Shown piece after piece: positions 23,248 to 52,515 of a stretch of DNA of 64,000 bases. Origin of the DNA: Styela clava (Eukaryota; Chordata; Ascidiacea; Stolidobranchia; Styelidae); NCBI RefSeq assembly GCF_964204865.1, contig NC_135250.1:27705395-27769394 (forward strand), written 5' to 3'. Below the pieces are notes generated by a model. The model made no database searches. It saw nothing but the letters and a program-made list of their open reading frames with translations, and was not told the DNA's origin. Both the position numbers and the translations under genes were made by a program. The stretch's first letter is position 1. Each line of letters begins with the position of its first letter.

Positions 23248-25195
23248 TCACGAAAAACTGAAATTGTTTTGTTGCTCATCCCAGTCGTCGTCATCTTCGT
23301 TTCCCTCCATATTGTCTGCAAAAGTATAGTTAAAACAAACATATAAGTAGCCTACTTAGTCATGTGTGGCGTGACCTAATGTTAACATTTGTATTGCTTT
23401 TTCGTGTTATGTAGGATTAAAGGTAACGTGCACTGGAGTGGGCGGCATAAAAACCTTGAATGCACATAAATATATTTCAATTCGATAAGTTCCAATTCTT
23501 TGAATTGACTCCCAGCACCACTGCGTAATAGACCACGATGCAGGTCACTTTACTGCTGTTCCGCTGCGGAGTTTGATTGCACTATTTTTTACCGGCTTTA
23601 ATCCGTTTCTCATAGCCATGGTATGGAAATATTCACAGTAGTTATTTAACTTAAACCTCATGTATGGCATAGCAGCATATGGAATCTTCTGAAAGTGGTA
23701 TTAACTTGGATATCATCAAACGGTTTCGATGTGTATGGCCGTGCCCGTACCACTCATGTTACTGAGCGACACTGGAGTCAGAACAAAACTCTTCCAAATA
23801 AGACGAATAGAATACTCTTTTCGCGCGAGTTGAAAATATTCTTACTTCGACTGTCGACTCAGCGTTGGCGAAATTTACCACATGTCTATTTATTGATGTT
23901 ATCGCGTTTAAATATTTTGTACGATGCACAGTCAACACATTTAAAAAAAGTTTCTTTAATAAATTTATTTTTATAACCCTCAACTAATTCGTGATTATGA
24001 TATTGCCCTTGACATATTTTACACACTTGTTTACAAAATCTTGAGATGTCACATGATCACATTGTGCATTTTGGGAATTTCGTTTCGTCGTTTCGAATTT
24101 CTGTGCAAAAAACTTCATGCTTCAAAATTCAATATATATATTATATATATATAATCATAGACAAGCATCCAAATTGGCTATTGCCGTACATACAAATTAT
24201 ATTTTACCACCAATACGACGGCGAAGCCAAGCTTTTAGCTCCTTCTCAGGTACATTTCTAATCCTCGCTAGCCATTTCAGCCACGATCCGCTATTCTTGT
24301 CCTTTGCTCGGGATCTGGAATGAATTAAATAATATGCAATTGAACAATGTTAAAATTCATTTGTACTGTTTGATCAGTTTGAAATAAGATAGCATGATAT
24401 GGCGACATTTCCCATATTCAACTCTAAGAACTCGACGGTTCGTTGACTCATTTCAGGTAAACGTAGATGTCCAACTGGATAATTTCAATACAATTCCTTA
24501 TATTTAGAACCTTTCCAATAGATATAAGATTGGAACTAGTGAATGGACTAAAAAGCTATGGTTCGCCATGTATTTGAGCCGCTCAGTGAATTCCCTTCTT
24601 TGTGATGAAAAATGGAATATCCGTCTCTCTCCCTACCTGTCCTATCAATACCTCAATGGGTCCCTAACATACCAAATCGTGTCATCAGCTCAATAATAAC
24701 AACTAAAAATGTGGGCAATGATTTATCGACGAAGTTTGTTCAGCATTCGAGAGTCAATTAAACATGTCTACCATCAGTGTCCAGAGAAGATACTTAGGCC
24801 ATAATTTTATTCCATTTTTTTTTTTCTTATTTTATTTCTATTACGAGTTCGGGGACCGCCATCTTGGTTCACGTACTACGGGAATACCCCCAGGAAAACC
24901 TGTAACAACTGGTGTTAGATGTTCACGATTCGTATACATGGTTAACCATGGACAAACTAGGATATCATCTTCTATTATATTTTAAAGCAAAGTCACTTGC
25001 CCTTGCATAGGAGCAATGGAGTATAGGAACAAGACCCCTGTGTTTCTATTTATTTTGCTGTCTTGTTTTTATCGAACTTATTCTGTATCACTGTTATTGT
25101 AGCATATATATATTACAATGCACTTACCGCCACAGGGAAGTCGTCGGAGTCACGACGTATAGAAGGATGAAAAGCAACAAGGTCAGCTTAAACAT
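23248..25195 (-). CDS. Small secreted cationic/anionic precursor, copy A (three exons, 80 aa)
   Basis: Exons on the minus strand: 25195-25128, 24314-24208 and 23315-23248. Exon 1 encodes a signal peptide (starts MFKLTLLLFILL, ends TTSLW) and stops at donor CG|GTAAGT in phase 2. Exon 2 follows acceptor ttccag and encodes a 35-residue amphipathic basic core with SWLKWLARIR and KELKAWLRRRIG, about +9 net; its donor is G|GTAAAA in phase 1. Exon 3 follows acceptor tttgcag and encodes an acidic tail (EGNEDDDDWDEQ) ending NNFSFS-stop. Phases join cleanly to give 80 aa. The same three-exon plan recurs in copies B-F. Signal + cationic helix + acidic extension is how several ascidian antimicrobial peptide precursors are built; I do not recognise this sequence as a named family, so that role is inferred. 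A minus-strand AATAAA lies at 23007-23012. Most diverged member of the array and the best amphipathic-helix candidate. Confidence 0.75.
24797..24960 (-). mobile_element. Dispersed 200-bp repeat, partial copy in intron 1 of precursor copy A
   Basis: GGCCATAATTTTATTCC, TTACGAGTTCGGGGACCG and CGTACTACGGGAATACC match parts of the family in reverse. Confidence 0.45.
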
Positions 25196-27640
25196 AACGA
25201 AAGCTGAGGAGTTACAATCTGCAAGTGAAACGTAAGTTAAATTTCAACCAACTGATCTACCGTGAGGTTTGGCTGTTTGTAAATATCTATTATTTTATTT
25301 AATAATCTCATCGAACTAGACTAGACTATAGATATAGTACGTTACATTCCTGATCATATATGTAATTGACATTCTAATACTATTTTCGATGTTGCATTTT
25401 GTTTTTATATGCTTGCTTGAAAGTTGCTGGATTTGGGCTCAAGCCTGTTAGCCACATCACCACTAATTTTCCGGTTTGTTTTCTTTTTTAGGGGTTTGAA
25501 TAATCTTGCTAATCCAAAGGTAAGATGAACAGATCAGAAAATTAGTGTTAGATAATTAATCATAGGTTCTAGTAGGGATAGTGCTATTTGTTTTTTATAT
25601 ACCGTCACTACCGTTTCTCAAAATTCGATCAATAATTTGGCCCTTCATTATCGACAACTCTGAGAGCAATACATTTTCAAGCGAAGTGCCCCGATTTAAG
25701 TAACCATACATACAAGTTAAGCAAGGCTTACAATACTTAACTCCCACGCTGCTTAAAGCTTACCGCGATTAACTCCAACCAAAAGACTTCACGTAATACC
25801 TGTTGGCGAAATCAATTTGAGCGATACATTATGATAGCAGTATGCTATTACTCAATGCTTTTACCTGCTCTGTTATGTCACGCATATTCTATAACAACAA
25901 CATTTTGCAGGTCTGGGAACTAGGTGCAAAGTGTTATATCAAGTTATTCATGTACTGACTTTCTGATCGGTTTTATTCCAGCTCTGTTGAGAATAAAAGC
26001 CGACGAAAATGGGATTAAAAGATGTGTCTTTTCTGTAGCCTTGTTTAGGGTGAAATCGTAAAAATAAATGAAATTGATAATGAGCCAGAATTGAATATAA
26101 AGTATATTTATTCACAGAACGCTTAAATTCAGTTGCAGCTTGCAAGCAATTAATATTTAGTATATATATCAAGCCCACCTTCTGAAAGATATTCGGGCTA
26201 TTTCCTCAACGTTTGTGAGTAGCCCACTGGAAGTAAAAACAAGACTAATGGTTGTAATTTATACATTTGGCTGATTAGTGGCAATATTTAGGCAACTTTG
26301 ATAAATGCATTAGAATATTTCAAAACCTATTTGTATGCCGGTTTTAACTCGAGCCTGAAGCTAGTGCGAGTATTATCTTAACTAAGTATGGATCGACGCG
26401 CTACTGTGGTTGACGATTTGAGTGTCTTCCATTGCATTCTCTCTTGGCCAGGCCTGCCCAACCTTCTCAGTGGCGGGGACACTTTCACATGAAGAAATTC
26501 ATTGCGGTCACAACGATTTACCAAACTCGAATACCAGCTGATTCACATCGGTTGCGCGTCCCTGAATTAAACGCTTGGATTGCACAACGCACTGGCTGAT
26601 TTCAGACGAGCACACGAGAACACACTTCCGTCAACTAAGACGTCAAAATTGAGTGTTATTTTTGCGTCATGATATTTTTTTTATCTAAATACTTCCAGGG
26701 ACAATGATACTGTTTCAACTTTTAATGAACGTGACGTGCGCTAATATCGCGTGAGTTTTGACAACTTTTTAGTTTTGTAAATTTCGAAACAATAATACAA
26801 GCACCTAATTAAGTAACTATGATTTCGTAGTGGATATATTAATTTGAATAAGTAGAAATGTTATTAGTCAATGCGGAATTTAACAGATACGCTGTGACGA
26901 CATTTAAGAAGTTTTATATAACGAAAAAAAATAACATAGACACGATGGAAAAATACAAACAGAAAAAGAGACGGCGAATCCCAGATCCAGTAGCAAAGAC
27001 TTTTTATTTTACAGGGGCGATCAAATCGGACACGATGGATATTAATCAGAATAAATTAATTCGGCTGCTTTCGTCAGCCACTCGCCGCCAACTATCGTGA
27101 AATAGCTTTAGAATTTGCGGGCCTGCAAGAAATGAAACGAACTTTATCATCAATGTTCACCAGAACGCAAGACTTGATACGTGATAATAATAAGAAGACC
27201 CAACAATTGGATGTAGATGGCCCGAACAGTAACACCAAAATCGCAAAACATATTTTAGATTGTAAAAAATACTAATAATTTAAAGTCTGCTTATAAACTC
27301 ATTATATAGCGGTCCGCAATAGACAGCTTGGCGTACCACATGCTGCCGACGGTTGGACAGCCTTGCTTTAGGTATTGTAAAGCAGCAAATACTCTCTTAT
27401 TTGATCTATATCGTATAATAGAGGCTGACATTAAGAAACAGCATTTTTGAAGTATTTGTATGTATATTGCAGTAATGAATATATTTCTAAATGTAAACGT
27501 TAGAGAAGAGACTATAAGTATGCACACTTGATATAACACACTTTTGCAGTCATTTTAATTTAATAGCAGTAGGCTACTTTAATAATTGGCTACACTGTTT
27601 ACATTTCTTTCAAAGTGGCGTCAACTGATGTTTCAGTCTC
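25196..27640. other. Region between precursor copies A and B
   Basis: 25650-25870 and 27400-27540 are duplicated at 41940-42160 and 42700-42780. Holds the old hAT-like element. No additional exon found. Confidence 0.55.
26449..27365. mobile_element. Old hAT-like element
   Basis: Ends CAGGCCTGCCCAACC and GGTTGGACAGCCTTG form imperfect inverted repeats (12 of 15). The flanking octamers CTCTTGGC and CTTTAGGT match at 5 of 8, so the insertion is old. A frame at 26858-27100 on the plus strand has no recognisable motif. Confidence 0.5.
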
Positions 27641-28880
27641 TTATTCGAAAGAAAACTCTTCCAAATCTTCGTCTGTAAAACCACTTTGTGGGTGCCATTG
27701 AGGTTGAAATCCTAAAAGAACAAGTTCAATCGTGAGATACATGTTCCACATTGATTGAGTTTATCAGTACTCCCGTAGTATGTGTACCAGGTTAGGGTTG
27801 GGCCTTAATTTTATTCCAATTTTCCCTATTTTAGTTCTATTACTAGTTCGGTGACTGTCTTGTGTTAGCCAAGTGAATATACCCCCTGCCCATAGGCTTC
27901 CGTCCCTTTACACAACTTGTGTGAAGTAGTCGAAAAAAATAAGTTACCTCCATATTGGTACACACACTCCTTGAGCGCCAGTTTAGCTAACTCAGGCATA
28001 AAATACTTTACCGGTATAAGAAAGGATATATTTCATTCATGTGTATATATATTTATTCACAACAGCAATATTCCTCGTTTAGTTTTCATTTTCAATATTA
28101 TGAATGCTTAATATCTTTTGTACGAGTATTTTTAAAAGAACAAGATGGGCACTCGCTACTCCGAGTTTTCCAATTGCAGACTCACAGTTATATAAAGTTC
28201 CTCTATTAAAATAACTTACTAGTAAAATGTAGCAGTGGCTAAAACATGGTTCCAATTTAATTTGACTTAACAGTTTTGAAGTCTGACTAAATTACCGATA
28301 CCTTGGAGTTCAAAATGATGTTTTCGGGGGTATAAATAATGTCTTCAACACCAGCTTGCAACAACAGATTTCAAATCTATATTTCTGGTCTAAATACCAT
28401 TTAAAACTTTTTTTAGCGAATGTTTTAAATTTCAATAAAAACGAAATATTCTCACTTTTTGTGCCCCATTTCATTGGACGAAAGAAAGTTGTGCGAACTA
28501 TTCCGCCACGAATTGTTTCACGAGGTCTTTGAAATGTGTGTCTAAATGGTCGATAAGTTTCTGTTCTTTTGCTGAAAAATTAGAGAAATATAAAATACAG
28601 ATACGGCAGAATGAATTAAATTAGCTCATTATTAGAAACCTCATTCTTTTCATCTTCAAAACGAAATGTGCTATTTTAAATTCACAGTTTTCACCGTGAT
28701 TACGCCTTTGTTTTTTGAAAACATTAGAAAATAACTAAAATTTCGTATTTCGTGCAAATTAAAAATATATATGAAACCAATAGATATAAAAACTTAAGAG
28801 ATGTCGACCTACCTCCACCACGAAGTTGATGTTTGGATTAGAAGTCCAACAATGCAAATGAATAAAATCATTCCATGCAT
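27641..28880 (-). CDS. Small secreted cationic/anionic precursor, copy B (three exons, 84 aa)
   Basis: Exons: 28880-28813, 28571-28456 and 27711-27641. Exon 1 (68 nt, same length as in copy A) encodes MHGMILFICIVGLLIQ plus TSTSWW, a signal peptide, with donor AG|GTAGGT. Exon 2 (116 nt, acceptor tttttcag, donor A|GTGAGA) encodes an arginine-rich core beginning SKRTETYRPFR and ending RPMKWGTK, about +9 net. Exon 3 (71 nt, acceptor ttcttttag) encodes FQPQWHPQSGF and the acidic end TDEDLEEFSFE-stop. Intron phases are 2 and 1, as in every copy. A dibasic KR directly follows the signal region and could be a processing point. A TATA box lies 37 nt upstream of the ATG. The nearest relatives are copies C and D. 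Function unknown; an antimicrobial or signalling peptide is the inference. Confidence 0.75.
27776..27975 (-). mobile_element. Dispersed 200-bp repeat, copy 3
   Basis: Reverse orientation; lies in intron 2 of precursor copy B. Ends GTATGTGTACCAGG and CCATATTGGTACACACACTC show the short inverted termini. Confidence 0.65.
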
Positions 28881-28916
28881 TATTTGGGTTATAATCTAGT
28901 TAACAAAAGAAACCAC

Positions 28917-28923
28917 TTTTATA
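28917..28923 (-). promoter_or_regulatory. TATA box of copy B
   Basis: TATAAAA on the minus strand within CTTATAAAAG, 37 nt upstream of the ATG. The same CTTATAAAAG block precedes copies C and F, which argues for a real core promoter. Confidence 0.55.
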
Positions 28924-29626
28924 AGCTAGTCGTACGGTGCTAAACAATAACATGAAAAATGCATTAGTTTTACCATTGTTTTAACTTCTCAATAATCACT
29001 TCTCAATTCGCCATAATACTTCATTACTCGTCAACTTTCTCATTTTAAAGTATAAGAAACTAAATATTACTGACCACAACATATTGAATGCGTGCAACAC
29101 CTCCGAATGTCGATGTTTATTAAACATACTCGAACTTTGGGGGCAGGATGACCAAACTTTTTTTTTCCATGTTTTGGTTTCATCGCCTAATATCACGAAG
29201 TCTGCGATACTTTTGTCTCAGTTTCGTTTGTTATGGAACGTTCTTCATCAATCATGTTGTGAATCGATACAAGCTCATCTCTGTCTTATGTTAGTTGAGA
29301 ATAATATTGAGTCATTTCACGCGCCGTCATTTTACAATATGAACTACATGAAAATTCTGATGTTTTTGTATTCATAAGCAAAGAGTATGACAGAGTCTAT
29401 TTTTCTTTGTCGATATCAAAAGCAATGCAATAGTCATAAAACATTACACTTACATCGGCATGGCTTTGGTATCTTTCAAAAAACATCTAAAAACTTTAAA
29501 ACCTATCTTGTGCAAAAAAATATAAAAGACAGTATTCATATACTCCTTCAATCAACGATAGTTACAATCTATTATTCGTGATTGACATTATTTATAGTTT
29601 TTAAAGGGTGAAATGATTCTTTAGAA

Positions 29627-31074: not shown

Positions 31075-32538
31075 TTATTCGAATAAAAAATCTTCCAAAT
31101 CTTCGTCTGCAGAATCACCTTGGACGTCCCACCTAGATAGGAATCCTGTGTATACAAACGTCAATCGTGAGATACATGTTCTACATTGACTGTCTTTTGC
31201 CAACTAGCTCCGGCCCGAAACACTTTGACAATATGAACATAACATTCCATAGGGGTATATAAATAATGACTATATTAATATTTCTAAGTTCGTTTCTCTA
31301 TGGGTTTTCGACTTTATAAATAATGTTTTCCATGAGTATTTTCAAAAGCACAAGATCTATCGAGATGTGCACTCGCTACTTCGACTCCAGATTACTAGGT
31401 GATATATATGTAACACTGCCTCAATCTCGTAGCTAAAATTATTTATCACTGCACATTAATCCCGTGAAAAGCATTGTTTCAATTTGATTCAACTTCGAAG
31501 TTAAACATCTGACTAAACAAATCTGTTCCGCCCCGCACCCTACATCAGGGGAATAAAATTGATACTTTATGAAAATATAAATAAAGACTTTAACACCAGC
31601 TAGCAACAGACTCTAAATCCAATGTCTGTTAAGAATAGAAAATTGGAATTTTTTTGAGCGACTGTTGTCAATTATCACATTTAACGGATTGTTCTTACCC
31701 TTTACATCCCATTTCCATGAATGGTAATTGGTTGTCTTTACCCCCCATTTACTTGGACGGAAATAGGTTGTTCTGGAAAAAAAAAAACGGTATGAAATAC
31801 AGATATGGTTCGTTTGTAGAATACATAATTAAGTCTGTCGTGGACAGTGTCGTCTTTACCATTGACCTAGAGGCATCTAGCTCTCTCAATTGTAAAGGTT
31901 TCTTCCAGAATGAAGCCGGTATAAAATGTTACAAAACTGATATTTGTTTAATGTTTTGGGCGGGTTATTATATTTTGTCCCAAATTTTTTAGCGTCCAAA
32001 AGATTAAAACAGAATACGACCGAATCAATAAATTTGTCCAGTTTTAAAAATCGCTACCTCTTCAATCTTGATAACGTAATATGCTATTTTAAAATACCAG
32101 TTTACCGTAATAATGCCATTACGTTTTTGAAAAAAAGAGAAAATATCTCAGCAACAACGAATCTAATACTTGATATATTTATTACTAGTTCGTATCGGTA
32201 GACGTATTTCATGCAAGTTAAAATAAATTCAATACGTCATATGCAAGAAATGTATATGATGAAGTCACAAGGGTTTCATGACGTCAATATTACTCGAGTT
32301 ACAAAGACTGATTTCTCTGACTGATTTGCGTTTTCATTGTAAGCCACAGTTGAATAATTACAAAAGCTTTCAACCGTTACTAACAAAAATTAGGAAATAC
32401 ATGGATTCGACAAAAATATTAAAACTTTAAATACTGTCCTCATAACCCCGATAAGATATCGACCTACCTATACCATGCCGAAGTTGATGTTTGGATTAGA
32501 AGTTCAACAATGCAAATGAGTAAAATCATTCTATTCAT
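31075..32538 (-). CDS. Small secreted cationic/anionic precursor, copy C (three exons, 71 aa)
   Basis: Exons: 32538-32468, 31772-31699 and 31145-31075. Exon 1 encodes MNRMILLICIVELLIQ then TSTSAWY, donor AG|GTAGGT. Exon 2 is shorter than in copy B (74 nt): its acceptor is a poly-pyrimidine tract ending ttccag, and it keeps only the C-terminal part of the core, TTYFRPSKWGVK, plus a second tract NYHSWKWDVK. Exon 3 (71 nt, acceptor acacag) encodes FLSRWDVQGDSA then DEDLEDFLFE-stop. The phases are 2 and 1 as in the other copies. Core charge is about +5, less than B or D. The shortened exon 2 could reflect a deletion with a shifted acceptor, so expression of this exact form is less sure. TATA box 59 nt upstream. 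Confidence 0.62.
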
Positions 32539-32596
32539 TATGTAGCTTTGGATCTATAAGTTCCTGCAAAATAATCCACTACTTATTTATCTCAAC

Positions 32597-32603
32597 TTTT
32601 ATA
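32597..32603 (-). promoter_or_regulatory. TATA box of copy C
   Basis: TATAAAA on the minus strand in the shared CTTATAAAAG block, 59 nt upstream of the ATG, the same distance as in copy F. Confidence 0.5.
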
Positions 32604-34528: not shown

Positions 34529-37082
34529 TTATTTGAAAGCGAACTTTTCCAAATCTTCGGCTGCAGAATCACCTTGGCTTCCTGTGTAATAAAATGTCAA
34601 TTATGAGTTACTTGTTCGACGATTACTGTGTTTGGCCAGTTCCTACCCTAAAACACATTCCCAGTAGGAGAAATAATTTCTTTTATTGATATATATATAT
34701 AAATATTCACACTATACGTTCATTTCGCCATTTGTTTTCGACATTGTAAATGCTAAGAATTTTTTAATTAAAGGAGTATTCCCAAAAGTTCGGGATCAAA
34801 TGAGATGGGCACTCGCTTCTTGGAGTTTTTAACTGCATATTGCAGGTGATATATATACCCCTATCTCTTAGCTAAAATTATTCATCCCTGCAAATTAGTG
34901 GTATAAAAAGCATTGTTTTATTTCAATTTAACGTGAAAAAACAGAGTATAATAAAATGAATCTATTCCTACATATACATCAGTTAGACCCCGACATACAT
35001 CAGTTATAATTGATAATTGGTGCCTCAAGGGCGTATAAATAATGTCTTAAATACCAGCTAGTAACAATAGATTTAATTCCCAGTGTTTCTAGTCAATATT
35101 CGTGAGCGCAGGTTGTTGTTTATCAAATTCAGCGGAATGTTCTTACCTTTCCCAACCCATTTCATCGAACGGGCGGGGGCTTTACGGGTAGAAAGTGTTC
35201 TTATGATGAACTTATCATTCTCATGTGTTTGAAATATGCGCCTGCATGGACGATAAAACTTTGTTCTTGTTCTTTTGCTGAAAAGAAAAACGCTATGAAA
35301 TACAAATATTGTTCAGTGTAGAAAACATAATGTAATCTGTCGTACAAAGTGCCGAATTCACGCTTAGCCTAGGGCAGGGGTCACTAAATTTTTTTGACCA
35401 CGGCCGGGGTATGACTCAAAACTGTATTTAAACGGGATGGATGAATATTTTTGTCAGTGCAGTACAATAAAGTCACAAAAGTTGGGAAATCCGTTCAATT
35501 TATTCAACAATATATATTCTACATTTCTGAAGACTCGAATATTAAATTCTATCTAATTCGCGGAATATAGATCGAGAACATCCTAGGAAACAAATATATA
35601 TACAAGATTTCTATATCTAGACAAATATCCTGAGTTTAGCTGTTATCAAAACGTTGCTGTCATGAATTAGGAATGTTACAAAATCCGCTTTTTTGCGCAA
35701 AAAAATGTTCGCATCACGTCTGCTGAGTACCGTTACGCCGTGTTGGAATACCGCTCCTAAAAAACGACTACGCACTGCCTGCTGTAGCTTGGAATTCCAT
35801 GAAATTTTAACACAATTTAGATAAATTAAACAACTATTATCTATCTATTTAATTTTTTGCATTAGCGCATAAATTTCCCAACATTCGGAGCTTTTAAAAA
35901 GTACGCTCCAGTTATACGTAGTGCAAATTAATTATATTGTCCATGGACACCAATAAAATATTTATTTGCGACGTTCTTTCAGTGGTGTCAATGACCGTTG
36001 TCAGAATAAAATCCTGAAATAGTCTCAATATTCTATAGATGTGACGCACATGGAAAGATTAGTGATTGATATGTGTTCTTTTTTCTTATTTATTACAGTT
36101 CTTATCAAATAAGTAATACAATCCTTATGGAAAAAATTGACCTGTCGGGCGGTTCTAAAATTCCGATATCTCCGTTGGTAACTTGGTATGAAGTTTAATT
36201 TTATTGTAACATACCTTACGCTTTCAGATTACAGTACTGTTAGCGCAAAATGCACATTCCGCGTTCATTTTAGCCCAATGAACGTAAACAGTTTCGTCGA
36301 AAGTGTCTGAGCGGATGCGAAAATGCCCATTATTACGTCACTTTTGTTGCAGTAGTTTGGTGATCCCTGGCCTAGGGAATCCACGCCTTCTAACTTGTAA
36401 AAGTTAGTTCCAGAATAGAGCCGTTTCAAAATGTCACAAATCTGATATTTGTTCAATGGCCCAGTCAAATTAAAAATTCTTGTTTCAAGTTATTTACCGT
36501 TTGAGAGATTAAAACAAAAAACGTCCAATAAATAAATTTGTCTAATTTGGAGAAATTCTCTTCTCAATCATAAAATCGGAATATTCCATTATAAATCTAC
36601 AGTTTTTGGACACCCCGATCGTTTTGCATTTTTGGACACCTTGTTGAAAAGTCGCTTTTCTCTTTGATTACTGAGCCAAAAATTTTAAAATTTCATTTTT
36701 AAAATTTTCAGTTGTTAAAGATGAATTTTCTCTCTAGAAGGCTATTTACTTTTATTCTTTTCAAATATTTCCGTTAGCTCTGTGAGATTCGCCGCCGTAG
36801 GACGACTTCACCAATAAGTCAATGCACGTGAAACAAATAACTGGCTAATTAATCCAATACCCGACATGGACTTATGGCAGGACGAGTGGCCTTGGTTCGC
36901 CATATGATTAAGTGACCTTATCGACTTTCCTCGACTTATGTAAAAACTTAACCTATCCTATTTCTAATAACTCAATAAACATTTTTAGTATTAGTAATTT
37001 TGTCAAATATATCGACCTACCTCCACCACCATGAAGTTGGTGTTTTGATTAGAAGTCCAACAATGCAAATGAGTAAAATCAT
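34529..37082 (-). CDS. Small secreted cationic/anionic precursor, copy D (three exons, 81 aa)
   Basis: Exons: 37082-37021, 35277-35147 and 34581-34529. Exon 1 starts at MILLICIVGLL because the more upstream ATG used in copies B and F is TTG here; it ends TSWWW with donor AG|GTAGGT. Exon 2 (131 nt, acceptor ttttcag, donor G|GTAAGA) encodes the most basic core, beginning SKRTRTKFYRPCRRIF and ending SMKWVGK, about +12 net with one cysteine. Exon 3 is short (53 nt, acceptor acacag): SQGDSAAEDLEKFAFK-stop, weakly acidic. Intron 1 holds a 995-bp hAT insertion (35375-36369) and an SINE copy, yet the splice signals are intact. The TATA block is mutated (CTTATACAGG), so expression may be reduced. Confidence 0.62.
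35375..36369. mobile_element. Non-autonomous hAT element in intron 1 of copy D
   Basis: Starts CAGGGGTCACTAAA, ends TTTGGTGATCCCTG, with perfect 8-bp duplications GCCTAGGG at 35367-35374 and 36370-36377. Its interior is homologous, in reverse orientation, to the element at 4228-5013. No transposase frame seen. Confidence 0.9.
36780..36960 (+). mobile_element. SINE copy in intron 1 of precursor copy D
   Basis: Shares ATACCCGACATGGACTTATG and TTGGTTCGCCATATGATTAA with the copies at 1185 and 52140. Head truncated. Confidence 0.55.
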
Positions 37083-37419
37083 TCTGTGCAATATGAATTA
37101 TATCCACCTGTATAAGCTAGTTGTATGGTGCTAAACAAGGACATGAAAAAATATTATAGTTTTATCACTGCCCTACCTCAGTAATATTTATTAAACCTAA
37201 TCGAATTATAATCGGGACCAAATGGCCGAATCGCGTTATTTTTTTTCATCTGTTTTGGTTTCCTTGCCTAAAGTTGGTATTGTGACCACAAGGTTTGGCT
37301 CAATTTGCTTCTAAGAAATCACAGGCGCCGTCTCGCCAAGGTTGTAATATATTCACTAGCATATGCTTGACAAAAAATTCCGGTATTTTCAAAACATAGC
37401 ATTGGTTAATTTAATAAGT

Positions 37420-37900
37420 CATTTTCCAATGACATATGGCGCTGTTTGAGCGCGTCTCCGTCCTATTTGCAGGATATTTGTAGGCATGTTTACTCTATTT
37501 TTAATAGAATATCTTTAAAAGAATAAAAATTGCTATCATTGCGGGCAATGCTATCGATATATGCTTGTCGCTATTTAGCAACAAGGGTAGCATGCAGCAT
37601 AATGAAGGGGAACAACAACAACAACGGATTTTCCAATTTATAGCGCTCACTGCACCAATGGTAATAATTTAGGTGTCTTGATGATGATAAACCATTTTAC
37701 ACGGACATATGGGGGCTGGTTGATCGGCCATTCAAAGCAAGGTGGGAAATATCAATGGTATTTTTGGATGTCTTGATGTCTGATAAAGCCTTTTCCACTG
37801 ACATATGGGCGCTGATTCGAAGCAAGGTGGGAAATACCAATGGTATTTTGGATGTCTTGATGATGATAAAACATTTTCAACTGACATATGGGCGCCTGTT
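37420..37900. repeat. Minisatellite, same unit as 52730-53340
   Basis: Tandem degenerate copies of the CTGACATATGGGCGCTG / GCAAGGTGGGAAATA unit. Confidence 0.65.
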
Positions 37901-38613
37901 GATCGCGTCATTGTCGTATTTGTAGGCATTTTTACTTCATTTTTTATTAGAATATTTTTGATAGAATATAATTTGGATGGAATATTCTACGGGCAATGCT
38001 TACAACATGTTTTTTTCTCTATTTAACAACAAGGGCGGCATGCACTATAATGAAGGGTTACAACAACACATATTCTTCAATAAAATACGATAATCACAAA
38101 AGAGCTTCATCCACAAACTGTTCAAATTCGAATATTTGTTAACCAGCCATTACATGATTAATCAGTCACTGGAGCAAATATGATGAATCATGCTGTTTAT
38201 TCACTTTGTGATTATAACATATTTCTGCGTCCCAGTTTGCGTTAATAAGTGATTGTACAAGAATTATTCAGAAAATTGGAATTATTCCCAGAATAAGTTT
38301 CATATGGAAACCGATCCTTGAGCAAAAGAAAACTCATTCATACGTCCCTTACATGCAAATATAATATACAAATATAAGTACAAATATTAAACAAATATAA
38401 GTACAAATTGAAGCCTAACTATGTATAAAAATATCTAGGAAAAAAATAGTGTTACATTCAAAAGTTTTTGAAAATTTAGTTCGAAAAGATTTTGTGAAAT
38501 ATAAAAAACGCGTATACATCGGTTGGGCTAAATATTAAGATGCACGCTCCTCGTTTTCCGTAGTTTTATTGTTAAATTAAAGTGTTTTTGAGATAGGATG
38601 AATGCTATTGAAT
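37801..38613. repeat. Segmental duplication, left copy
   Basis: Nearly identical in the same orientation to 53240-54073, which lies just downstream of TMR1. Followed directly by the TMR1-type exon fragment; the 54074-54440 interval is absent here. Confidence 0.85.
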
Positions 38614-38633
38614 CTGCGCTTCGCTTCGTTCTC

Positions 38634-38730
38634 TTACCCCATTTCGTCCTCTTGCTGCGGTTCATGTTGCGGACAAATTTTCGAGCTTGTCGATACTAAC
38701 TGACGATGATATGCCAGTTTATGGAGAAAT
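38634..38730 (-). pseudogene. Fragment of a TMR1-type cytoplasmic exon
   Basis: After acceptor gttttag the frame reads FLHKLAYHRQLVSTSSK, matching the start of TMR1 exon 6 (FYHKLANYRQLLSTTSK), and then HEPQQEDEMG-stop. It abuts the duplicated TMR1 downstream flank (37801-38613). No other TMR exon was seen nearby, so this is the remains of a third gene copy. Confidence 0.75.
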
Positions 38731-40780: not shown

Positions 40781-41719
40781 CTGTTGAAACCCATGTCATT
40801 GATTGGGAGGAGGAGGCTGTTCTGGTAAATCCATACCCCTATTCCCGGGATGTGTTTGAAATCTGTACCGGCATGCACGATAAAACGTTTTGAACTTTTT
40901 GCTGAAGAATAAAAACGTTATGATATACAGATATTGTTCATTGTAGAACACATTATGAAGTCTGTCGTGAACAGTGCCTGATTTACCCTTAGGCTGGGGG
41001 AATCCACGCCCTCTAAATTGTAAAGGTTCGTTCCAGAGTATCGCCGGTTTAAAATGTAAAATGTAAATAAAACTAATATTCGTTTTATGTTTTAGTCAGG
41101 TTAGGAATTCTTGTCATGAAATACTCAACGCTCAAAAAATTAAAACAAAAATACGATCAAATAAATAATTTTGTGAAACGATACTTTTTGAATCTTGATA
41201 ACCTAATCTGCTATTTTAAATTGACAGTTTTTACCGTTATATTGTTATTTTTTATTTTGCCTTAATTTTTTTTTTTAAATATGGAAAAATATATCGGCGA
41301 TAGAGTATCTAAAAATTAGTATATTCATTGCTATATCTGATCTATAAATCCGTTTATTTCTAATAATGCAAAGAACGGGTAATATTGACATCAGGTTTTC
41401 TGGTGATGTTTTTTTTACATTTTCGATTTTTGGCGGTTTTTAAATTCAACTTGCTATCAAATCTTCTTGTGTGATAATGGTATTATCATGCTTGTAAAAT
41501 TCCGCGAGTTAAAATTAAATTTATGACGCCATATAAAGATGTAATTTTTCTGACGTCATTTTCAACCAAGCTATTCGTAAATATAGCGACGGGTTCGACA
41601 CCAATATGAAATTTTTATTACTGGCTTCATAACCCCGATAAGATATCGACCTACCTCCATCATGAAGTTGATGTTTGGATTAGAAGTCCAATGTAAATGA
41701 ATAAAATTATTCTATGCAT
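40781..41719 (-). pseudogene. Broken copy E of the small secreted precursor
   Basis: Exon 1 (41719-41655) keeps the signal-peptide reading MHRIILFIYIGLL, but a tryptophan codon near its end is TGA, giving an in-frame stop, and one codon is missing. Exon 2 (40901-40781) is 121 nt, so not divisible in frame: it reads KKFKTFYRACRYRFQTHPG, then shifts frame before MTWVSTG. Splice borders are still recognisable (cag|C and ACAG|GTAAGA). No exon 3 is present: about 160 bp beyond exon 2 the sequence switches to the far upstream part of another unit (40490-40610). Confidence 0.7.
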
Positions 41720-42284
41720 TATGTATACTATGATCCAATCTTGTTCGTGCAAGATAATTCACAACTAATTTATATCCACTCTAATAAGCTAATGAAATAG
41801 TGCTAAAAGAAAAATACACTAGTTTCACCATTTCTTCGAGTTAATATTAACATTTCAATTTGCCGTAATATTTTGAAATTAGATTTAAAATTCGCCTATA
41901 GTTTGAGCTTCACTATATTTTTATATTCTGGCTTTCGTTATGAACAACTCTGATATCAAGGCATATGAATGCAAGAAGTGTTCCCAAATTTGAGTAATCA
42001 TATAAACTAGTTAGGCGAGGCTCATACAATGCTTAACGCCAACACGGTTCAAACTTTACTGCGATAAACACCAACCCAAAGACTTACACGTTATACCTGA
42101 CTATCTTACACTTGAGCGATACATTAAGCTATAGTCGTGTGATATTACTCATTTCCCTGCATTGTTGTCAGGTAAAGTGAATAACATCGTGAGTTTCTAT
42201 AACATTTTAAAATTAGGGGCAAAGTCGGGGAACGAAATGCAAGGTAAAAAAAACACCTAATATTGATCCAAAATTGAATAAAAT

Positions 42285-42293
<9 letters not shown>

Positions 42294-42318
<25 letters not shown>

Positions 42319-42320: not shown

Positions 42321-42787
42321 GTATATATACATACACGGAACGCTCAAATTCAGCTGTTTCAATACTTACGTTTTTATTTTTAAAAAGAAAAAATTTTTCT
42401 TGTACGAAACACGTTAGTCTGCCAGTAACAAGTTTTTAAGTTCCAAAGTTCATCACATTGAACCATGAATGATGATGAATGCGATTATACTGCGTAACAT
42501 ACTAATTTACAAATTTCAAGCAATTATTATTCGGTACATCAAGCCCAACTAGGTTCTGGAACGTTTTCGGTCTCTTCGCTAACGTCGACGAATTTTGGTA
42601 GAAATAAACAGGATTAATAGCATAATAGTCGTAATTTAGAACTGTGCCGAGCTCGAATGAGTACGTCGTGACCTGAACATGACGCGAAAATTGGTAAATG
42701 ACATATATAAATGTATTGTATATTGTATTTCTAAATGTAAACGTTACAGAGAAGAGATTGTGCACACGAACATAACACACACTTGCA

Positions 42788-43690: not shown

Positions 43691-43758
43691 TTGGCATTCT
43701 TGCATATTTTGTGTATTGCTAGTATCCAACCATGGATCCTGCACTGTCCGGACTCAAT

Positions 43759-44159: not shown

Positions 44160-44834
44160 GGGAAAATATGAAATTTTATCCTAAGTAACGAAAACGTTTG
44201 GAAACCCGTATCTCATTGCAAAACAATGGCAAAAACGTAATAAACATTTAATTTATTTACAACTTAAAATTAACTCGTTCGTCAATAATGTATTTCTGCA
44301 ATCAAATATAAGAAATATTTAACAAAAATTTCGAGCAATCTAACTCTCTGAAGATCCGAAAGCAAGTTTGATTTTTATATCAACGAAAGCAGCCATGTCT
44401 GCAAGCTGGCGAGTCCCAGTTCATGGTTGAAACTGAAAAAGAGTGAACATAGATTAAAGTTACTGTAAGGAAAATATGATCAAAATTTTGGGGTTCTGAT
44501 GAAAATATTAACTCATATGTGATGAATATGAACAGATGTTCCGAAAGTGTTATTGGCGCCAAAAATACTCTATTGCAATATTATGCAATGCAAAAAGGTA
44601 TTGTAGTTGTTTTAGTTGTCTTTATATAATTGTATATTGTAAGGTGCGATACCCCACTAGCTTTTCTGTTGAACATACCAGGTTGATGCTGTAGGATGTA
44701 ATGTGAATGTCTCAAAAGATCTTTTTTATTAAATACATACAGGTGCCAACGAAACTCTTTACAATATCACGCAACACAAAACTGTGACGTTACTTATAGA
44801 GTCCTATTTGGCGCAGAGTTTGAAACGTTTAGAT

Positions 44835-45121
44835 CGGGAGTATGTAACGTTTATTACACTCGGTCCAGATAAAAATGATTATGTGAAACCGCAGGCGCCA
44901 CCTTTATTTGACATAAGCGTTCTAGTTGTTGCAGGCACAAAAGCGTTTTAACATTATATGCATAGATAATAAATTTAAATTGGGTTTATGCTCTGCAACG
45001 CAAAGGAATTGAAAGTACTCGCGAGATTAAACTAAATCCAAAACTTGTTACTGCCAGGCGAAATTGGCATTACCCGCGGGCCGCACTATTTTTCCTGCGG
45101 GCCGCAGGTTGCACACCCCTG
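44835..45121. mobile_element. Short hAT-like MITE
   Basis: Perfect duplications GTTTAGAT at 44827-44834 and 45122-45129. Right end GGTTGCACACCCCTG; left end CGGGAGTATGTAAC differs mainly by transitions. Confidence 0.8.
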
Positions 45122-45865
45122 GTTTAGATGGTATTATTTAAGCAACGTTTATAAGTGATCAATGTCAATGATACCTTCATGGAAATTAGCATACCCGCCT
45201 TGGGCCTGTAAACGGACAATCCGTTATGAGCAATTGTCTCATTTTGAATATACATGGAATCTTATTCCAAATCATAAGTATAGTTTTAGTCAAATATACG
45301 CAATTCGGAAGCATATTACCTTTGTAAAGATTGAACTTGGTTGCATAGTCCAGATCTGAAAGCAGAAACGAGATGTTTAAAAAACTATCTCACGTAAAGC
45401 CATGTGTAATAGATACATACTTTCGACATGAAATGAACTTATAAATCGTTTTTTTATTATTCCGCTGTTATAAAAATCGCTTTTTTCTTGAATTACTGGA
45501 CCAGTTGCTTGGTAAATATCAGTGGTTAAAGCTTGTTGTTTTTAACAACAAAGGCTATAACTCTGGGTTCCGTGCGATCGCATTTTCTCTTCGAAGTTTT
45601 GTGTGATGACGTCATCAAGATTAAAAAAAATGCGTTCATGGTTTACTGATTATATCACAGTGATCGGGTGGTTAGACTACTGGTACTGTAAAAGATTTGT
45701 TGCTACCACGGTTTGGCTTTCGTGTTCATTTTAAGTATTTATGTATTGCTTTCTTGTTTTGATCTATCTATAAGTCAGTAGCCTTTCATCGTTTGTTTGC
45801 TTTATTTTGATGCAACGGCCAAGATTTGTTCCATTTTGCTTTACGACTGTAGAACACAACTAAAT

Positions 45866-46030
45866 TAGGGTTAGGCCATAATTTCGGGAATACTGCGGAA
45901 GTCACTTGGCTGGTCCCCGAACTCGTAATAGAATTAAAATAAAGAAAATTGGAATAAACTTAGGGCCTAACTATAACCTGGAACACATACTACGTGTCCG
46001 TCATCTTGGTCCGCATACTACAGGAGTACC
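45866..46030 (+). mobile_element. Dispersed 200-bp repeat, partial copy
   Basis: GTCACTTGGCTGG, CGAACTCGTAATAGAATTAA and AACCTGGAACACATACTACG match the family; the 5' half is missing. Confidence 0.55.
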
Positions 46031-46240
46031 CTAAATTTTTAGGAATTCAACACTATTCTGAGTAAACTGATTAGAAAGTCTAAAATCACTGACTCGACTC
46101 CCCGTCCGTCAAACACTCGAAGTGACTCGAGTCATCCAAACAAAATGATTCGGACTCGTCACCAATTAACCGCCATTTAGACTTAACCCGATCATTGTCC
46201 AACTTTAAACTTTGGACTCGAGACTCGGAGGACTTATGAC

Positions 46241-46613
46241 TAGGGCTGGGCATTTTCGAATACTTGATGATTTCAGAATCGAATCTCGAATACCTGGAAG
46301 GTATGAAATTGTATGTAACTTTCTTATTATTTTAGGTCCTCCAGACACATAAATTACTGGAAACATAGAATACATCACTGACAATAAAAAATAAAAAAAC
46401 GTTTTCATCAATACCTCAATACAGAAAAGAGTCATATGTCAGAATTGTGTTGAAAATATATGGCTTCAATGATAAAAAATTGAGAAATTTACCTCGACCA
46501 TTGGCGGAAAGAGTAAAACAAGATGGCGGCGATTCGAAAATTTGCTCTCAACCGATTCGAATAATTTACTATTCGATTCGATTCGAATATTCTATTCGAA
46601 ATGCCCAGCCCTA
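46241..46613. mobile_element. hAT-like MITE, TAGGGCTGGGCATTT family
   Basis: Ends TAGGGCTGGGCATTTTCGAA and TTCGAAATGCCCAGCCCTA, perfect duplications CTTATGAC at 46233-46240 and 46614-46621. Older partial copies lie at about 2515-2875 and 7450-7773. Confidence 0.9.
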
Positions 46614-47021
46614 CTTATGACTCGCTAATCGCGGTTTAAGGAATTCTACCCAACATTATTAACATTATGTTTCACGTTTTCTGATATCATGGCGGTTTAT
46701 TACCCCTTTAAGCTTCTCAATTTCCTTTTAAATTCGAGTTACTAAATTTACTCGCGTTATTAGCGTATGCATTTATTATAAATGTGCAAATTTGTATTTT
46801 GGATGCAAAAGTAAACATTTATTATGAGGTCATATACTTACAATTATTAATCGCCCCTCCCAACTTAATCCAGATAACGCCACTGGTGACATTTATACAT
46901 CAAATAAGAAGTGTGATTCTTAATTTCTTTGAAGCACCCTTTCATTTATAAAATGATTTAAATCATTGTTAAAAATTTTAAATAATAGAAACAATTTTGA
47001 ATATTATAAAATTATTCTCAC

Positions 47022-48265
47022 CATTCGTACTTTTTTCCCAATTGCCAGTTTTCATTGCTGGGAAAATCACAAAAAAAAAAATTTAGGTCATAATGATTTT
47101 GTTTTTACATGTATATATATATGTGTGCTGATCAACGAACAGTATAAATGTTCGGTTGTGAGTTCGAGAAAAATTTACAATCGACAATCACTCTCGACTC
47201 TAAATAAAACGTTGATTCTAGAAACATCCAATAGAAACATATATCAGACTTTAGAATAATTACCTGCCTTGCCCGCTATAGCGTAGGCAACAGTAACTGT
47301 GTACGCTGAAGCTACCTGCTAAAATATATAAATGTACAGTAATTTAACTATATTTTATAATGTATATTATAGCTAATCTTGGTAAGTATAACTAGAATTC
47401 TAACTCATGTTTTAGTTCTGGGTATACATACTAAATGTATAAACCATGTTATTGAAAGCCTTCACGAAACAGCTTTTCTCTATTGTGTTTTTGGTCATTC
47501 ATGAAATGATGTTACTTGATTTTCTATTACTTGATTGATATTAGATTTTATTTAACATGGCCTTTGTCCAAACAAGAAGCGTATTATCTTCATGGAAAGG
47601 CACAATGCACCAACCCGTATTTATCCAATATCTATACTTGAATAATTTTTCTTAATTGTGTGTACTTATTGTCAAGCTTTACTAGGCACATTACATTTGT
47701 CGAACAGTGTGTGCAAACTAAGGCCCACGGGCCAAATTCGGCACGTAAGAAAAATTGTGCGGCCCGCGAGAAGTGCCAATTTTGAATGGTGTGTCCGCGA
47801 AACGAGTTTTTAGTTTAGTTAGTACGTGCGAGCAATTCCAATCTCTATGCGTCGCAAAGCTTATGCCAGTACTTGAGTGCCACTGTCATATTAGCATAAA
47901 TATTAGCTAGCAAAAATCTGTTGCAGAATACATAGCAGTTTTCTTTAGACAATTTATGCGTTTTAACTCACCATTTCCGCAAGAACCCCTAACAATTCCG
48001 TGAAATCAATAACAAAAAAAAACAATTTGTTGTGCTAGCAACTACTAAAAATGCTATCCTAAATAAAGGGGCGGCCGGCGGCTTCACCCACTTACTTGTA
48101 TCTGGCCCTACTGTAATAAAGGTTGCACACCCCTGTATTATACTGAACAGTACAAGAATAATGTACCTGTGTCACCACGACTCTGTAACCTCCCCATGCA
48201 TCAGCAGGTAGTATACAAACAGACATAAATGTGAGCAACAGTATAATGTGAGCAAATACCGCCAT
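47022..48265 (-). CDS. Possible secreted protein, 5' exons only
   Basis: Three exons fit one another. 48265-48167 encodes a convincing signal peptide MAVFAHIILLLTFMSV ending ADA, then WGGYRVVVTQ, with donor CAG|GTACAT in phase 0. 47318-47264 (acceptor ttttag) reads QVASAYTVTVAYAIAGKA, donor G|GTAATT in phase 1. 47057-47022 (acceptor ttttcccag) reads AMKTGNWEKSTN, donor G|GTGAGA in phase 1. A hAT end (47705-48135) sits in intron 1. The last exon is uncertain: 44432-44380 (acceptor ctctttttcag) continues in phase and ends NWDSPACRHGCFR-stop; an alternative acceptor at 45205 gives only a few in-phase codons before a stop. I do not recognise the protein; small size and signal peptide resemble the neighbouring precursors, but the sequence does not. 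Confidence 0.42.
47705..48135. mobile_element. hAT-like element with decayed target duplication
   Basis: Left end CAGTGTGTGCAAACTAAGGC, right end GGTTGCACACCCCTG. Flanking octamers do not match. Lies in intron 1 of the possible secreted gene. Confidence 0.5.
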
Positions 48266-51248
48266 TCCTAATTATTGCTCTGCGCTTGTATGCAACGCAT
48301 AGAGCATTTAACAATTACATACTTCCTTTCTACTAATCAACGCATGGGATTCTGTGACGATATTCCGCTCGTTAATTTGCAGATAGGTGAAGAAATATTT
48401 CGGATTTGCGGAAATGCGAGACAAACATACACGCTAACTCAGAAATATGAACACGAACAGAGAATATACTTTTAAACCTATTAGAAATTAGATTAGGTAT
48501 CTATCGTAGTGATTTTTATATTTTGACTGATGCATCTGATTAAAATATTCAATAAACTAAACTAGCAAAGCGTTTGTTCTCAACTATTAGTTCTGCTTTG
48601 TCAGATTTGTAATAATAATACGTTTGTTTTGTTTATTTATCCAAATTAAGATACAATCAGTTTAAAACAGTTTAACACCAAAGACACACTGACTAAAATA
48701 AGGACAACAAGATTCAAGAACTAACAGCTTCTTTATGACTATCAATGTGTGGTGTGATCGGCCTAAACATGAATAAGTCACACACAATATGTGGACTTAC
48801 AAAGAAGCCAATCAAAATGTTGTTTGCTTGACACGTTATAAAAGTCACAACGCATGACAAGATTTATTGGACGTGAGGTGTACATATGGATCGTTCTGTT
48901 ACTATGTTGTTTTCAAAATACTTTTCTTATTTTTTTCTTGTTATGATAAATCGCCTTTTTCTTCAATTACTAGACCAATTGCTTTAAAATTTCAAATACC
49001 TGCAGATTTTATTTTTGCTAACAATAAAAGAGCGTTGAAGTAAATATATAATTTGTGAATGTAAAAAGCGCTTTTCCGACGAAAGTTTGGCAACAAAAAT
49101 CACGAATGGCTGCGCCATGTCAATAAAATTAAAAAGCTTACGTTTTAGCATTATCGTTTTATAATTTCATAAACTTTCTCTTAAATATCATAAGGTCGTA
49201 ATCAGGTAAATTTCGATAATTTTGATTCCTGCAAACGAATGTTACATTCAGCATTAAACGTGTGCAATTATTTTTCGTGATTAAGCAACATTATGGAGTC
49301 AATTCGACATCTCGACCTGATTGTCTGAAGACACTTCCAGAACAGCCAGGTATCTGTTACAATCCCCAATATACCATATTTACCAATTATTCATCGCCGT
49401 TAAAGGTACATTTGGACTTCATACACTGGTGTGATATTTATTCATACGCAATCACGTATGAATAATTGCATTGTAGATATTTTATTATTTCTAATGCCAA
49501 GTGAATACGTCATGAAAAATTCGCGATGAATCTACATTTAAATTCGACTCGTTCATACTCAAGTTTCCAATTCCCATTTGAGTTCGAGGTATTCATGATT
49601 TAAAAATGTGATCTACAGCAACTCGTAGGGTTATCAAGAGGTTAACGATATAAGTCTATCGACTCGAAAATATATAAAACTTTTCAAGCAGGTTTTGATA
49701 TAGGATACAAAATTCTATGATCAGAATAGTCTTTGTCAGTGATAATGTACTAGAAAGACAATACCCATAAAAATGAACAAATCGGAAAGACCAGAGGTCT
49801 TCAGGTCATGCGCTACGTCCTACGACATGGAATTGATTGGTAACAGGTTCATATTTCAAGCTCAATTACTCAAAAATGATGCAAATATTAAAAACTTTCA
49901 TGTGTTACTTAATGAATGTTGATGTTCAAAACATTTAATTGGCTTTAAAATAATTTTAATGGAATATTTATTGAATAATTTTATTGGAAAAATGAAACAT
50001 ATAATAGAACAAATAGTAAACCTACATTTGTTTAGTAATAGTTGGTATAGTGGTGAGATCGTTTGGCTCAACGTACACCTTAGAATTCACAGGCACCGTC
50101 AAAACTTGGTTGTAAAATATACAGCAGGCTTCAGTATGTTTTCAGCATATTATTCTTAAGCAAGTTTCCGGTATAGCACAAACATAGCAGCTCGCTGTGT
50201 ATAAGCAAGGTTGGAAATGCCAACGGTAATTTAGGCGTTTGCAAAATTACAGGTTTCGAGATGCCGCATGATGTCGTTGGGAATATATCATGGCACGGTC
50301 TCTTCTACTTTATTTCCCCGAAAATAAGACCTAGCCCGAATTATAAAATCGATTTTAATATAAGCCCCCCGACGACAAATGTGCAAAAAAATTTCATCAT
50401 TTGACGTCGAATTTTTAAGCAAACAAACTTCAGCCCAAATGCCTCATGTGTATTTATTATATCTGTATTCGTATTAAACCCCTCATCTCAGGCAATGTTC
50501 AAACAATTTCCTACATTTGGGACAAATAACTTATGAACTTTCCCAATATCTGACTTGGACCGGTCTTGAGAGGCTTGAGAGGCCGTGGTTAGTTATATAT
50601 TCATTCTGGCTTGGTGACTTCCTATTCTTGTGATACGTTTGAGTTAGTCTTAGGTCTTATGATTAAAGATTATAATTTGCCCGATGTTTTTTTGCTGGCT
50701 GATTTTATAATCAAGCCTGGGCTTTGTCTGATTGTTATCAAGTCAATTCAGAAAGCCTGGACCGGCTTGCTACTGTAGTTGGTGACGTGAATGTCTTCCA
50801 TTACATTCCTTCTAGACATTGTATGATGTAAATTTTCTTCTTATTTGATATCTATGGAATGTGCGTTTGAATAGCGAATGTTGCAGTAATTTTCAAGATG
50901 TTTTACTGGTTGGTTTTAAAATCGAGCCTGGGCTGTAGCTGTATATTTATTATCAAGTCAACTCGTAAAGCCTGGACGGACATGCATGCTATTGGATTTG
51001 ATGAGCTGATTGTCTTCCCTTACATTTCTTCTAGGCATTATCTATGCAATTTGCGTTCAAATGCCGAACGTTTCAGTAATGAATGTATTTCCAAATTTAA
51101 ACGTTACACAGAGGAGAGGCTAAGAATTCACATTGGTATAAAGATCATCCATCAGTGTATTGAATGTCACTGTATTGTCCATATTTTTATTAATCAGCCA
51201 CAAAATTTTATGTTCTCTTGGAGTGACTGTAATTGGTGTCTCGGCTTC
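48266..51248. other. Region downstream of precursor copy F
   Basis: 50160-51230 repeats blocks found downstream of copies C and D (ACGTTACACAGAGGAGAGGC, CAAATCTTCG-like and TCATCCATCAGTGTATT-like words), so it is the distal part of the same unit. 48.3-50.1 kb has no supported feature. Confidence 0.5.
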
Positions 51249-52515
51249 TTATTCAAAAGAAAAATCTTTCCAATCTTCGTCTGCAGTATCACTTTGGACA
51301 TCCCACCAAGATAGGCCGAGACCGTCGTCACCTGTGTAAATAAACGTCAATCATTGGGACTCGCTACTTCGTACTTCGACTCCGAAGTGATATATAAGTA
51401 ACACTGCTTCAATCTCTCAGCTAAAATTATTTATCACTGTTCATTATTCATGTGACTTTTCATTGTTTTAATTTAACTAAACAAATCTGTTCCGCCCCGG
51501 ACCCGACATCCCGGGAGTAAAATTGATACTTTATATAAATATAAACAATGTCATCAACACCAGCTAGCAACAACAGACTTTAAATCGAATCTAAATGTCT
51601 GGTAAAAATAAAATATGGCATTTTCTGAGCGACTGTTGTCAATTATTAAATTTAGCCGTTTGTTATTACCTTTTACATCCCATCCCATTAAACGGGTATA
51701 GGTTGTCACGGGGGGTCCGCTGAAAAATAAAAACATTTTGAAATACAGATATATAATGCTCGTTTTTAGAACACATAATGAAGTCTGTCGTGGACAGTGT
51801 CGGATTTAAAACATAACAACCTGGTGGCCCACACCTTCTAAATTGTAAAGGTTCCTTCCAGAATGAAGCCGGTTTAAAATGTTACAAAATGATATTTGTT
51901 TAATGTTTTAGTCAAGTTTTTAATTCTTGTCCCAAATTATTGAGCGTTCAGAAAATTGAAACAAAAATATGGCCAAATGAATAAATTTGTCTAATTTTGA
52001 GAACGCCCCTTCTTTGATCTTATTAACGTTACTTGCTATTATAAAATCACAGTTCACCGTCATTTTTTTGAAAAGATAAGAGAATATCTCAGCAACAACC
52101 AATCTAGGAATTAGTATATTTAAATTTAATACTATTTCTATTGCACCACTGATTACCCTGCTCGGGATCGCACGTTCAATTCCCTCGGGGAATAAATTTG
52201 TACAAGTGGATTGCTGGATTTCTCGCCGTCATAGCGTCGTGCGGTTCATCAACAAGTCCATATTCATAAAACAAATAAATGCCTGGCTGATTAAATAATA
52301 CCCGACATGGACAGGTAACCAGACGAGTGGCGTGGTTCGTCATATGCCTGAGCCGCCTTTAGGAAATACAGCAATGGAATCAACAAAAATATCAATACTT
52401 CAAATAATGGTCTCATTAATGGTCACCCCGATGAGATATCGACCTACCTAAACCATAAATTTGATGTTCGGATTAGAAGTCCAACAATGCAAATGAGTAA
52501 AATCCTTCCATGCAT
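51249..52515 (-). CDS. Small secreted precursor, copy F (three exons, 66 aa), reduced core
   Basis: Exons: 52515-52448, 51719-51670 and 51331-51249. Exon 1 (68 nt) encodes MHGRILLICIVGLLIRT then SNLWF, donor AG|GTAGGT. Exon 2 is only 50 nt (acceptor tttttcag, donor G|GTAATA) and encodes GPPVTTYTRLMGWDVK, with almost no net charge. Exon 3 (83 nt, acceptor acacag) is extended: DDGLGLSWWDVQSDTA then DEDWKDFSFE-stop, strongly acidic. All joins keep frame. Loss of most of the basic core while the acidic tail grows suggests either a different role or early decay. TATA box 59 nt upstream. Confidence 0.58.
52140..52350 (+). mobile_element. SINE copy
   Basis: B-box-like CGTTCAATTCCC at 52173-52184, then the family body with AACAAGTCCATATT, ATACCCGACATGGACAGG and GTGGTTCGTCATATG. 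Confidence 0.6.

Follow-up and report, generated by a model that had tools for sequence, protein, structure and literature searches.

The window analysed was a 64,000-nucleotide stretch, C1:27705395-27769394 (contig C1), within an assembly of 376.6 Mb and 379 contigs. The 200 kb beyond the window were also read, giving a total of 264 kb scanned, with coordinates extended from the window. The window carries small minus-strand genes with three exons each: one for the signal peptide, which ends in phase 2, one for the core, which ends in phase 1, and one for the acidic tail (Table 1). In the open copies, exon 1 measured 62-71 nt and encoded, from the start codon on, a hydrophobic signal 20-23 residues long (signal peptides were judged by eye), the core exon measured 50-131 nt, and the tail exon measured 53-83 nt including the stop codon. 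The initial annotation had proposed this plan for six copies. Its exon borders were exact (stop codon of copy A at 23248-23250, exon 1 of copy F from 52515), the intron phases of 2 and then 1 were borne out by the gene models, and an exon 1 of 68 nt was recovered in A, B and F. Five copies (A, B, C, D and F) have open frames on this plan and copy E is broken. As judged from the DNA, the genes are real and their borders correct to the base.

Table 1. Features of the peptide genes and of the adjoining receptor genes
Feature	Position	Strand	Remarks
Copy A exon 1	25128..25195	-	signal peptide, 68 nt, ends phase 2, donor GTAAGT
Copy A core exon	24208..24314	-	charge +9, ends ...RRRIG before tail
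Copy A tail exon	23248..23315	-	acidic, with stop codon
Copy B exon 1	28813..28880	-	68 nt
Copy B core exon	28456..28571	-	charge +9
Copy B tail exon	27641..27711	-	acidic
TATAAAA upstream of copy B	28917..28923	-	
Copy C exon 1	32468..32538	-	71 nt
Copy C core exon	31699..31772	-	two 12-residue repeats, charge +5
Copy C tail exon	31075..31145	-	acidic
TATAAAA upstream of copy C	32597..32603	-	
Copy D exon 1	37021..37082	-	from inner Met, usual ATG lost
Copy D core exon	35147..35277	-	charge +12
Copy D tail exon	34529..34581	-	short, charge -2, ends FAFK
YSVV cytoplasmic exon remnant upstream of copy D	38616..38720	-	contains a stop
Copy E exon 1	41655..41719	-	in-frame stop
Copy E core remnant	40796..40901	-	to in-frame stop; tail exon search empty
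Copy F exon 1	52448..52515	-	68 nt
Copy F core exon	51670..51719	-	about one repeat unit, charge only +1
Copy F tail exon	51249..51331	-	acidic, charge -8
TATAAAA upstream of copy F	52574..52580	-	
YSVV cytoplasmic-tail exon, receptor directly upstream of copy F	54367..54582	-	
Transmembrane stretch, receptor upstream of copy F	54833..54952	-	
Ectodomain stretch, receptor upstream of copy F	55538..55786	-	domain repeated throughout the array
Copies G to P	about 71, 87, 113, 131, 153, 162, 175, 200, 228, 239.7 kb		extended window coordinates

The proposed likeness of the copies was found at the DNA level among B, C, D and F. Copy A has the same layout, but its exons lack DNA similarity to those of the other copies; its kinship with the family is drawn from the intron phases, the exon length, the FSFx ending and an upstream stretch in common (25644-25896 on the copy A side against 41934-42186, 72% identity). 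The genome search gave no paralogues of copy A elsewhere, three weak matches (E 2.25-2.45) being set aside. Copy D is without the usual start codon and must start at an inner Met. Copy E contains one stop in exon 1 and another in the core frame, and the search for its exon 3 was empty. The W-x-x-Q tail motif described for the family was present in B, C and F within the window and in G and P outside it, and absent from D and A. Upstream of copies A and E lie two short, similar-looking, tail-like frames on the minus strand, at 26172-26225 (...FRRWA) and 42542-42586 (...EPSWA), which may be the last exons of another small gene. A 1.2-kb duplication (85%) with 83-nt spaced repeats adjoins copies D and F (37414-38613 and 52847-54072), and one arm of a 700-nt inverted repeat (82%; 4315-5013 and 35375-36114), perhaps a mobile element, lies in intron 1 of copy D.

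The array extends about 176 kb past the window, where ten further copies (G to P) were located. When the 376.6-Mb genome was searched, a 201-nt exon-1 query gave 15 matches and a 117-nt tail query gave 14, all on one strand at C1 27.733-27.945 Mb, in a search that scores best candidates only and that divergent copies could therefore escape. Protein searches with exon 1 (15 matches, to E 2.3) or with the tail (5 matches) gave no place outside the array. The gene family forms a single tandem array on contig C1 at 27.73-27.95 Mb, and the 15 exon-1 matches together with the divergent copy A bring the total to 16 copies. Twelve of these (A, B, C, D, F, G, H, I, K, L, N and P) are open in all three exons with GT-AG borders, P using a different acceptor, and four (E, J, M and O) are broken: the core of J carries a stop and its tail has lost the stop codon, the signal of M is out of frame and an acceptor is lost, and the core search in O was empty. 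A GH6 exon is present in the genome (E 1.5e-6); GH6 in animals is a mark of tunicates.

A scan for open middle exons in the right phases, with a minimum length of 50 nt, succeeded in 10 of 14 gene intervals versus 340 of 1566 control intervals; middle exons in the gene intervals are thus beyond chance. The scan was empty in J, M, O and N, and the core of N, with a pyrimidine tract just below the scan threshold, was added by hand. Of the 12 open genes, eight (B, C, F, G, H, I, L and N) have TATAAAA 43-65 nt 5′ of the ATG, and, given this closeness to the ATG, the peptide genes seem to have a promoter of their own. Only B, D, F and G have a poly(A) signal no more than 80 nt from the stop codon.

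The cores of C, G, H, I, K, L and N consist of two or three 12-residue units with a consensus of approximately TTYYxPxxWxVK. None of 2000 shuffles reached the 12-residue lag in C, G, H, I, K and L, and 11 of 2000 did so in N; in the same test the lag was absent from A, B, D, F and P. Core exons of 50, 74 and 110 nt are separated by steps of 24 and 36 nt, which are whole codons. The B, D and P cores align over one repeat unit, placed behind other sequence, and D and P contain Cys. Core charges (K+R-D-E) calculated for A, B, C and D matched the earlier values exactly (Table 1). The cores are basic, that of F being nearly neutral. Charge balance between core and tail proved loose: their sum was within 2 of neutral in eight of 12 precursors, and D (+10), F (-7), B (+4) and P (+3) departed from it.

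The helical moment suggested as a check was calculated for 11 cores, F being too short. Over 18 residues it was not clearly above that of shuffled cores in any of them (best in B, where 34 of 500 shuffles reached it), and over 11 residues D alone stood out (reached by 5 of 500 shuffles). Since the moments do not clearly exceed those of shuffled cores, a classical amphipathic helix is unsupported. The residues at the core-tail border are KR in B, K, L, N and P, KG in C, D, F, G and H, NG in I and GD in A. The last base of the core exon sets the next residue as G or R, with R in K, L and N versus H and I, and in this way KR is gained or lost. A KR border would be a dibasic cleavage site.

Conservation between the seven lineages B, C, D, F, G, H and P tells more against chance than the middle-exon scan; identities were calculated as pairwise means, gaps set aside. 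Exon 1 gave 0.853 and the terminal 42 nt of the tail 0.864; intron segments gave 0.494-0.694, the 24 nt before the two acceptors 0.727 and 0.803, upstream flanks 0.628-0.767 and downstream flanks 0.571-0.670. Core identity was 0.672 ungapped and 0.306 with gaps counted. Aligned in this way, the signal and tail appear conserved and the middle variable, a pattern described for other defence-peptide families (PMC7387483). In the recent group of H, I, K, L and N, exons were no better kept than introns. Nei-Gojobori omega across 11 copies was 1.35 for exon 1, 1.81 for the tail and 0.66 for the core, with every interval spanning equality and low power because the exons are short; it gave no signal of purifying selection on the protein across these copies. 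Synonymous sites in exon 1 and the tail were conserved at least as well as other sites. With omega near or above 1, the ends are therefore conserved at synonymous sites too, and their conservation does not demonstrate constraint on the protein.

The 12 open precursors were compared with Pfam, which returned stray single-member matches only (E 0.016-0.074), with NCBIfam, a prokaryote library, which returned a stray match (E 0.045), and with solved structures, among which nothing was credible (best E 0.26 for copy G and 1.2 for the profile). The names returned by the solved-structure searches for precursors and receptor exons (E 0.26-2.6) were taken as chance. Literature searches found no publication naming this peptide family, and sequence comparisons gave no link to a named antimicrobial family. 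As far as these libraries and the comparison with clavanin and styelin genes of the same genome reach, the family is undescribed-looking, in keeping with the initial annotation. The review table of tunicate antimicrobial peptides in PMC8719109 contains only a handful of families.

A clavanin A query, with its sequence taken from PMC8719109, matched at C1:10.57 and 10.54 Mb only (83 and 87% identity, all 23 residues), and a styelin-fragment query matched at C10:16.34 Mb only (82% over 17 residues, E 0.015). The first clavanin place (L047, 388-1656) and the styelin place (L048, 493-1611) are precursors of the expected layout. With the GH6 exon, these genes mark the genome as that of Styela or a close relative, which bears out the ascidian setting of the initial annotation. 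Clavanins, with their gene on C1 about 17 Mb from the array, are like the array family in intron phases 2 and 1, secretion and an acidic stretch behind the mature part, but have an acidic propiece exon ahead of the mature peptide, the mature part and tail in one exon, and another sequence. Styelins and botryllin share with it a secreted, basic peptide and an acidic extension behind the mature part, whereas the styelin gene, on C10, has phases 2 and 0, a mature peptide encoded partly by exon 1 and partly by exon 2, and another sequence. The short botryllin epitope VKGWGKDS recalls VKGFLSDS; the botryllin precursor is longer, at 158 residues. Membership of the clavanins was rejected on the propiece and exon plan and the His-rich 23-residue mature sequence, phases 2 and 1 being common, and membership of the styelins on gene structure and the Phe-rich mature sequence of 31-32 residues. 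By these comparisons the array family is neither clavanin nor styelin.

Among the Ciona precursors covered by PMC7387483, most candidates are ordered signal, cationic, anionic, and all five uncharacterised candidates tested were active. The short, secreted precursors of the array have this LCAMP order, though the core of F is nearly neutral (+1) and the charge of the D tail is small (-2), and are like Ci-MAM, Ci-PAP and the KH.S921 family, as presented in that source, in order of parts, conserved signal and shortness. The W-N near the tail start of KH.S921.1 and KH.S921.3 recalls RWNVQ of copy G. Unlike the LCAMPs as presented there, the cores here are without a clear amphipathic helix, contain Cys in D and P, and in seven copies are built of 12-residue repeats. 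When tails were compared with 15 Ciona tails and two botryllin epitopes under whole-tail shuffling, KH.S921.1 or.3 came top for four of eight tails. When the basic and acidic halves were shuffled apart, 19 of 192 comparisons fell below 0.05 against about 10 expected, spread over many peptides, the 192 representing 12 copies, which are not independent, by 16 of 22 table rows (S921.1 and S921.3, 1/12 each). Tail homology to KH.S921, good under the first procedure and lost under the second, is not claimed; the likeness is best described as resemblance and not as membership.

The array is interpreted as a family, so far unnamed, of small secreted precursors. Its products are most likely host-defence peptides of the antimicrobial type, a reading given about an even chance of being right. 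The function is assigned by analogy, since the layout of basic core (nearly neutral in F) followed by acidic tail matches that of ascidian antimicrobial precursors. The antimicrobial claim of the initial annotation is supported by this layout only; the cores showed no clear amphipathic helix, and sequence links to published Ciona peptides did not survive the stricter shuffling. Once translated, as we infer that it is, the chain would be led by the first exon into the secretory path and presumably secreted. The basic, aromatic core would be the active part, presented as two or three 12-residue units in seven copies and presumably directed at a membrane or microbial target, and the acidic tail would neutralise it until cleaved off, presumably at the core-tail border. 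Counting against the host-defence reading are the lack of a clear helix, the +1 core of F, the unbalanced charges of D and F and the absence of KR from seven copies, as well as omega near or above 1, the few poly(A) signals, the four broken copies of 16 and the intron-like conservation of exons in the recent group.

The three-repeat cores contain five or six Tyr in 37 residues, together with Lys and Trp, and DOPA peptides are known in ascidian blood cells (PMC3039461, PMC9966394). The family might on this account provide blood cells or the tunic with peptides rich in tyrosine, either structural or serving as phenoloxidase substrates, whose Tyr would be converted to DOPA and whose basic repeats would be cross-linked in wound or tunic hardening. 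This is considered unlikely: there is one Tyr each in the cores of B, D and F and none in that of A, the precursors are tiny and occur in many divergent forms, and an acidic tail would be needless.

The omega values, the broken copies, the scarcity of poly(A) signals and the poor conservation of exons in the recent group are also what would be expected of a decaying or untranslated array, in which exons were kept as DNA by hitch-hiking or for a regulatory or RNA role and no useful peptide was made. Open frames, phases and splice sites are, however, kept in 12 copies, the core lengths (50, 74 and 110 nt) lie whole numbers of codons apart, and exons exceed introns in identity across the seven diverged lineages, which makes decay a rather improbable account.

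Between the peptide genes, and on their strand, lie genes resembling type I membrane receptors. These tandem receptor-like genes, with two kinds of cytoplasmic tail, occupy 54367-63458 of the window and recur in the array beyond it. An ectodomain query gave 50 genome matches, some of them pieces of one domain, with 45 on C1 at 27.585-27.950 Mb (four on the plus strand, 27.585-27.610 Mb); the other five, all weak, were on C6. The YSVV tail, which ends ENIEDMYSVVNK, gave 10 matches at threshold, all 10 directly upstream of a peptide gene (F to O), and upstream of M, near 177.6-177.9 kb, its end occurs twice more as short copies. The longer tail type adjoined a peptide gene (P) in 1 of 27 matches, provided that a receptor whose tail was not found is skipped; these 27 include four close pairs, probably one gene each. 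No YSVV receptor lies directly upstream of A, B, C or E.

Receptor exons gave nothing credible in Pfam or solved structures. Pfam was run with single exons and two concatenations with unverified junctions, a weak test in which no immunoglobulin or sushi domain was found. The predicted structure of the receptor domain (three window sequences) had a mean pLDDT of 43 and was set aside. In Botryllus, fester and FcoR form adjoining, co-expressed receptor pairs with YxxI/L/V tails (PMC12065747). The array is like the fester and FcoR genes, as presented there, in its clustered membrane receptors, its two adjacent kinds and its YxxI/L/V-type tail motif; unlike FcoR, its receptors gave, in the weak test above, no Pfam match to an immunoglobulin or sushi domain.

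The 10 of 10 YSVV tails directly before a peptide gene on the same strand, versus 1 of 27 for the other tail, together with the Botryllus pairs, would be consistent with peptides acting as ligands or self-markers for neighbouring receptors, peptide and YSVV-tail receptor forming one co-inherited unit. This was judged decidedly improbable, because distances between peptide genes do not track those between ectodomains (Mantel r 0.157, with 1346 of 5000 permutations as high, ten units), three of the ten units (J, M and O) carry a broken peptide gene, and the linkage may be plain unit duplication, since blocks recur in which 5.8-10.4 kb align at 82-94% identity. That the whole array is a receptor-and-peptide immune complex, the small secreted peptide with its fast-changing core being a ligand, self-marker or paired effector of its co-inherited YSVV type I receptor, is very doubtful. 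To our knowledge no such germline-paired recognition and effector unit is known in any chordate, and none appeared in literature searches, which were not aimed exactly there.

If the host-defence reading is true, this would be a further family of tunicate antimicrobial peptides, in a Styela-type genome, and its cores, differing by 12-residue units, would offer a natural series on the diversification of defence peptides. The strict adjacency to one receptor tail type makes joint inheritance of effector peptides and recognition receptors testable in a tunicate.

Two further features were seen within the window. Another small secreted gene lies at 44383-48265 (minus strand), spliced by eye into about four exons, with a signal of ...PADAWGGYRVVVTQ and an end of ...CRHGCFR; it was without a Pfam match and was present as one copy in the 264 kb. 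To the left of the array, an open frame of 808 residues at 16108-18534 (minus strand) encodes a p130Cas-type adaptor (SH3, serine-rich, CAS_C).
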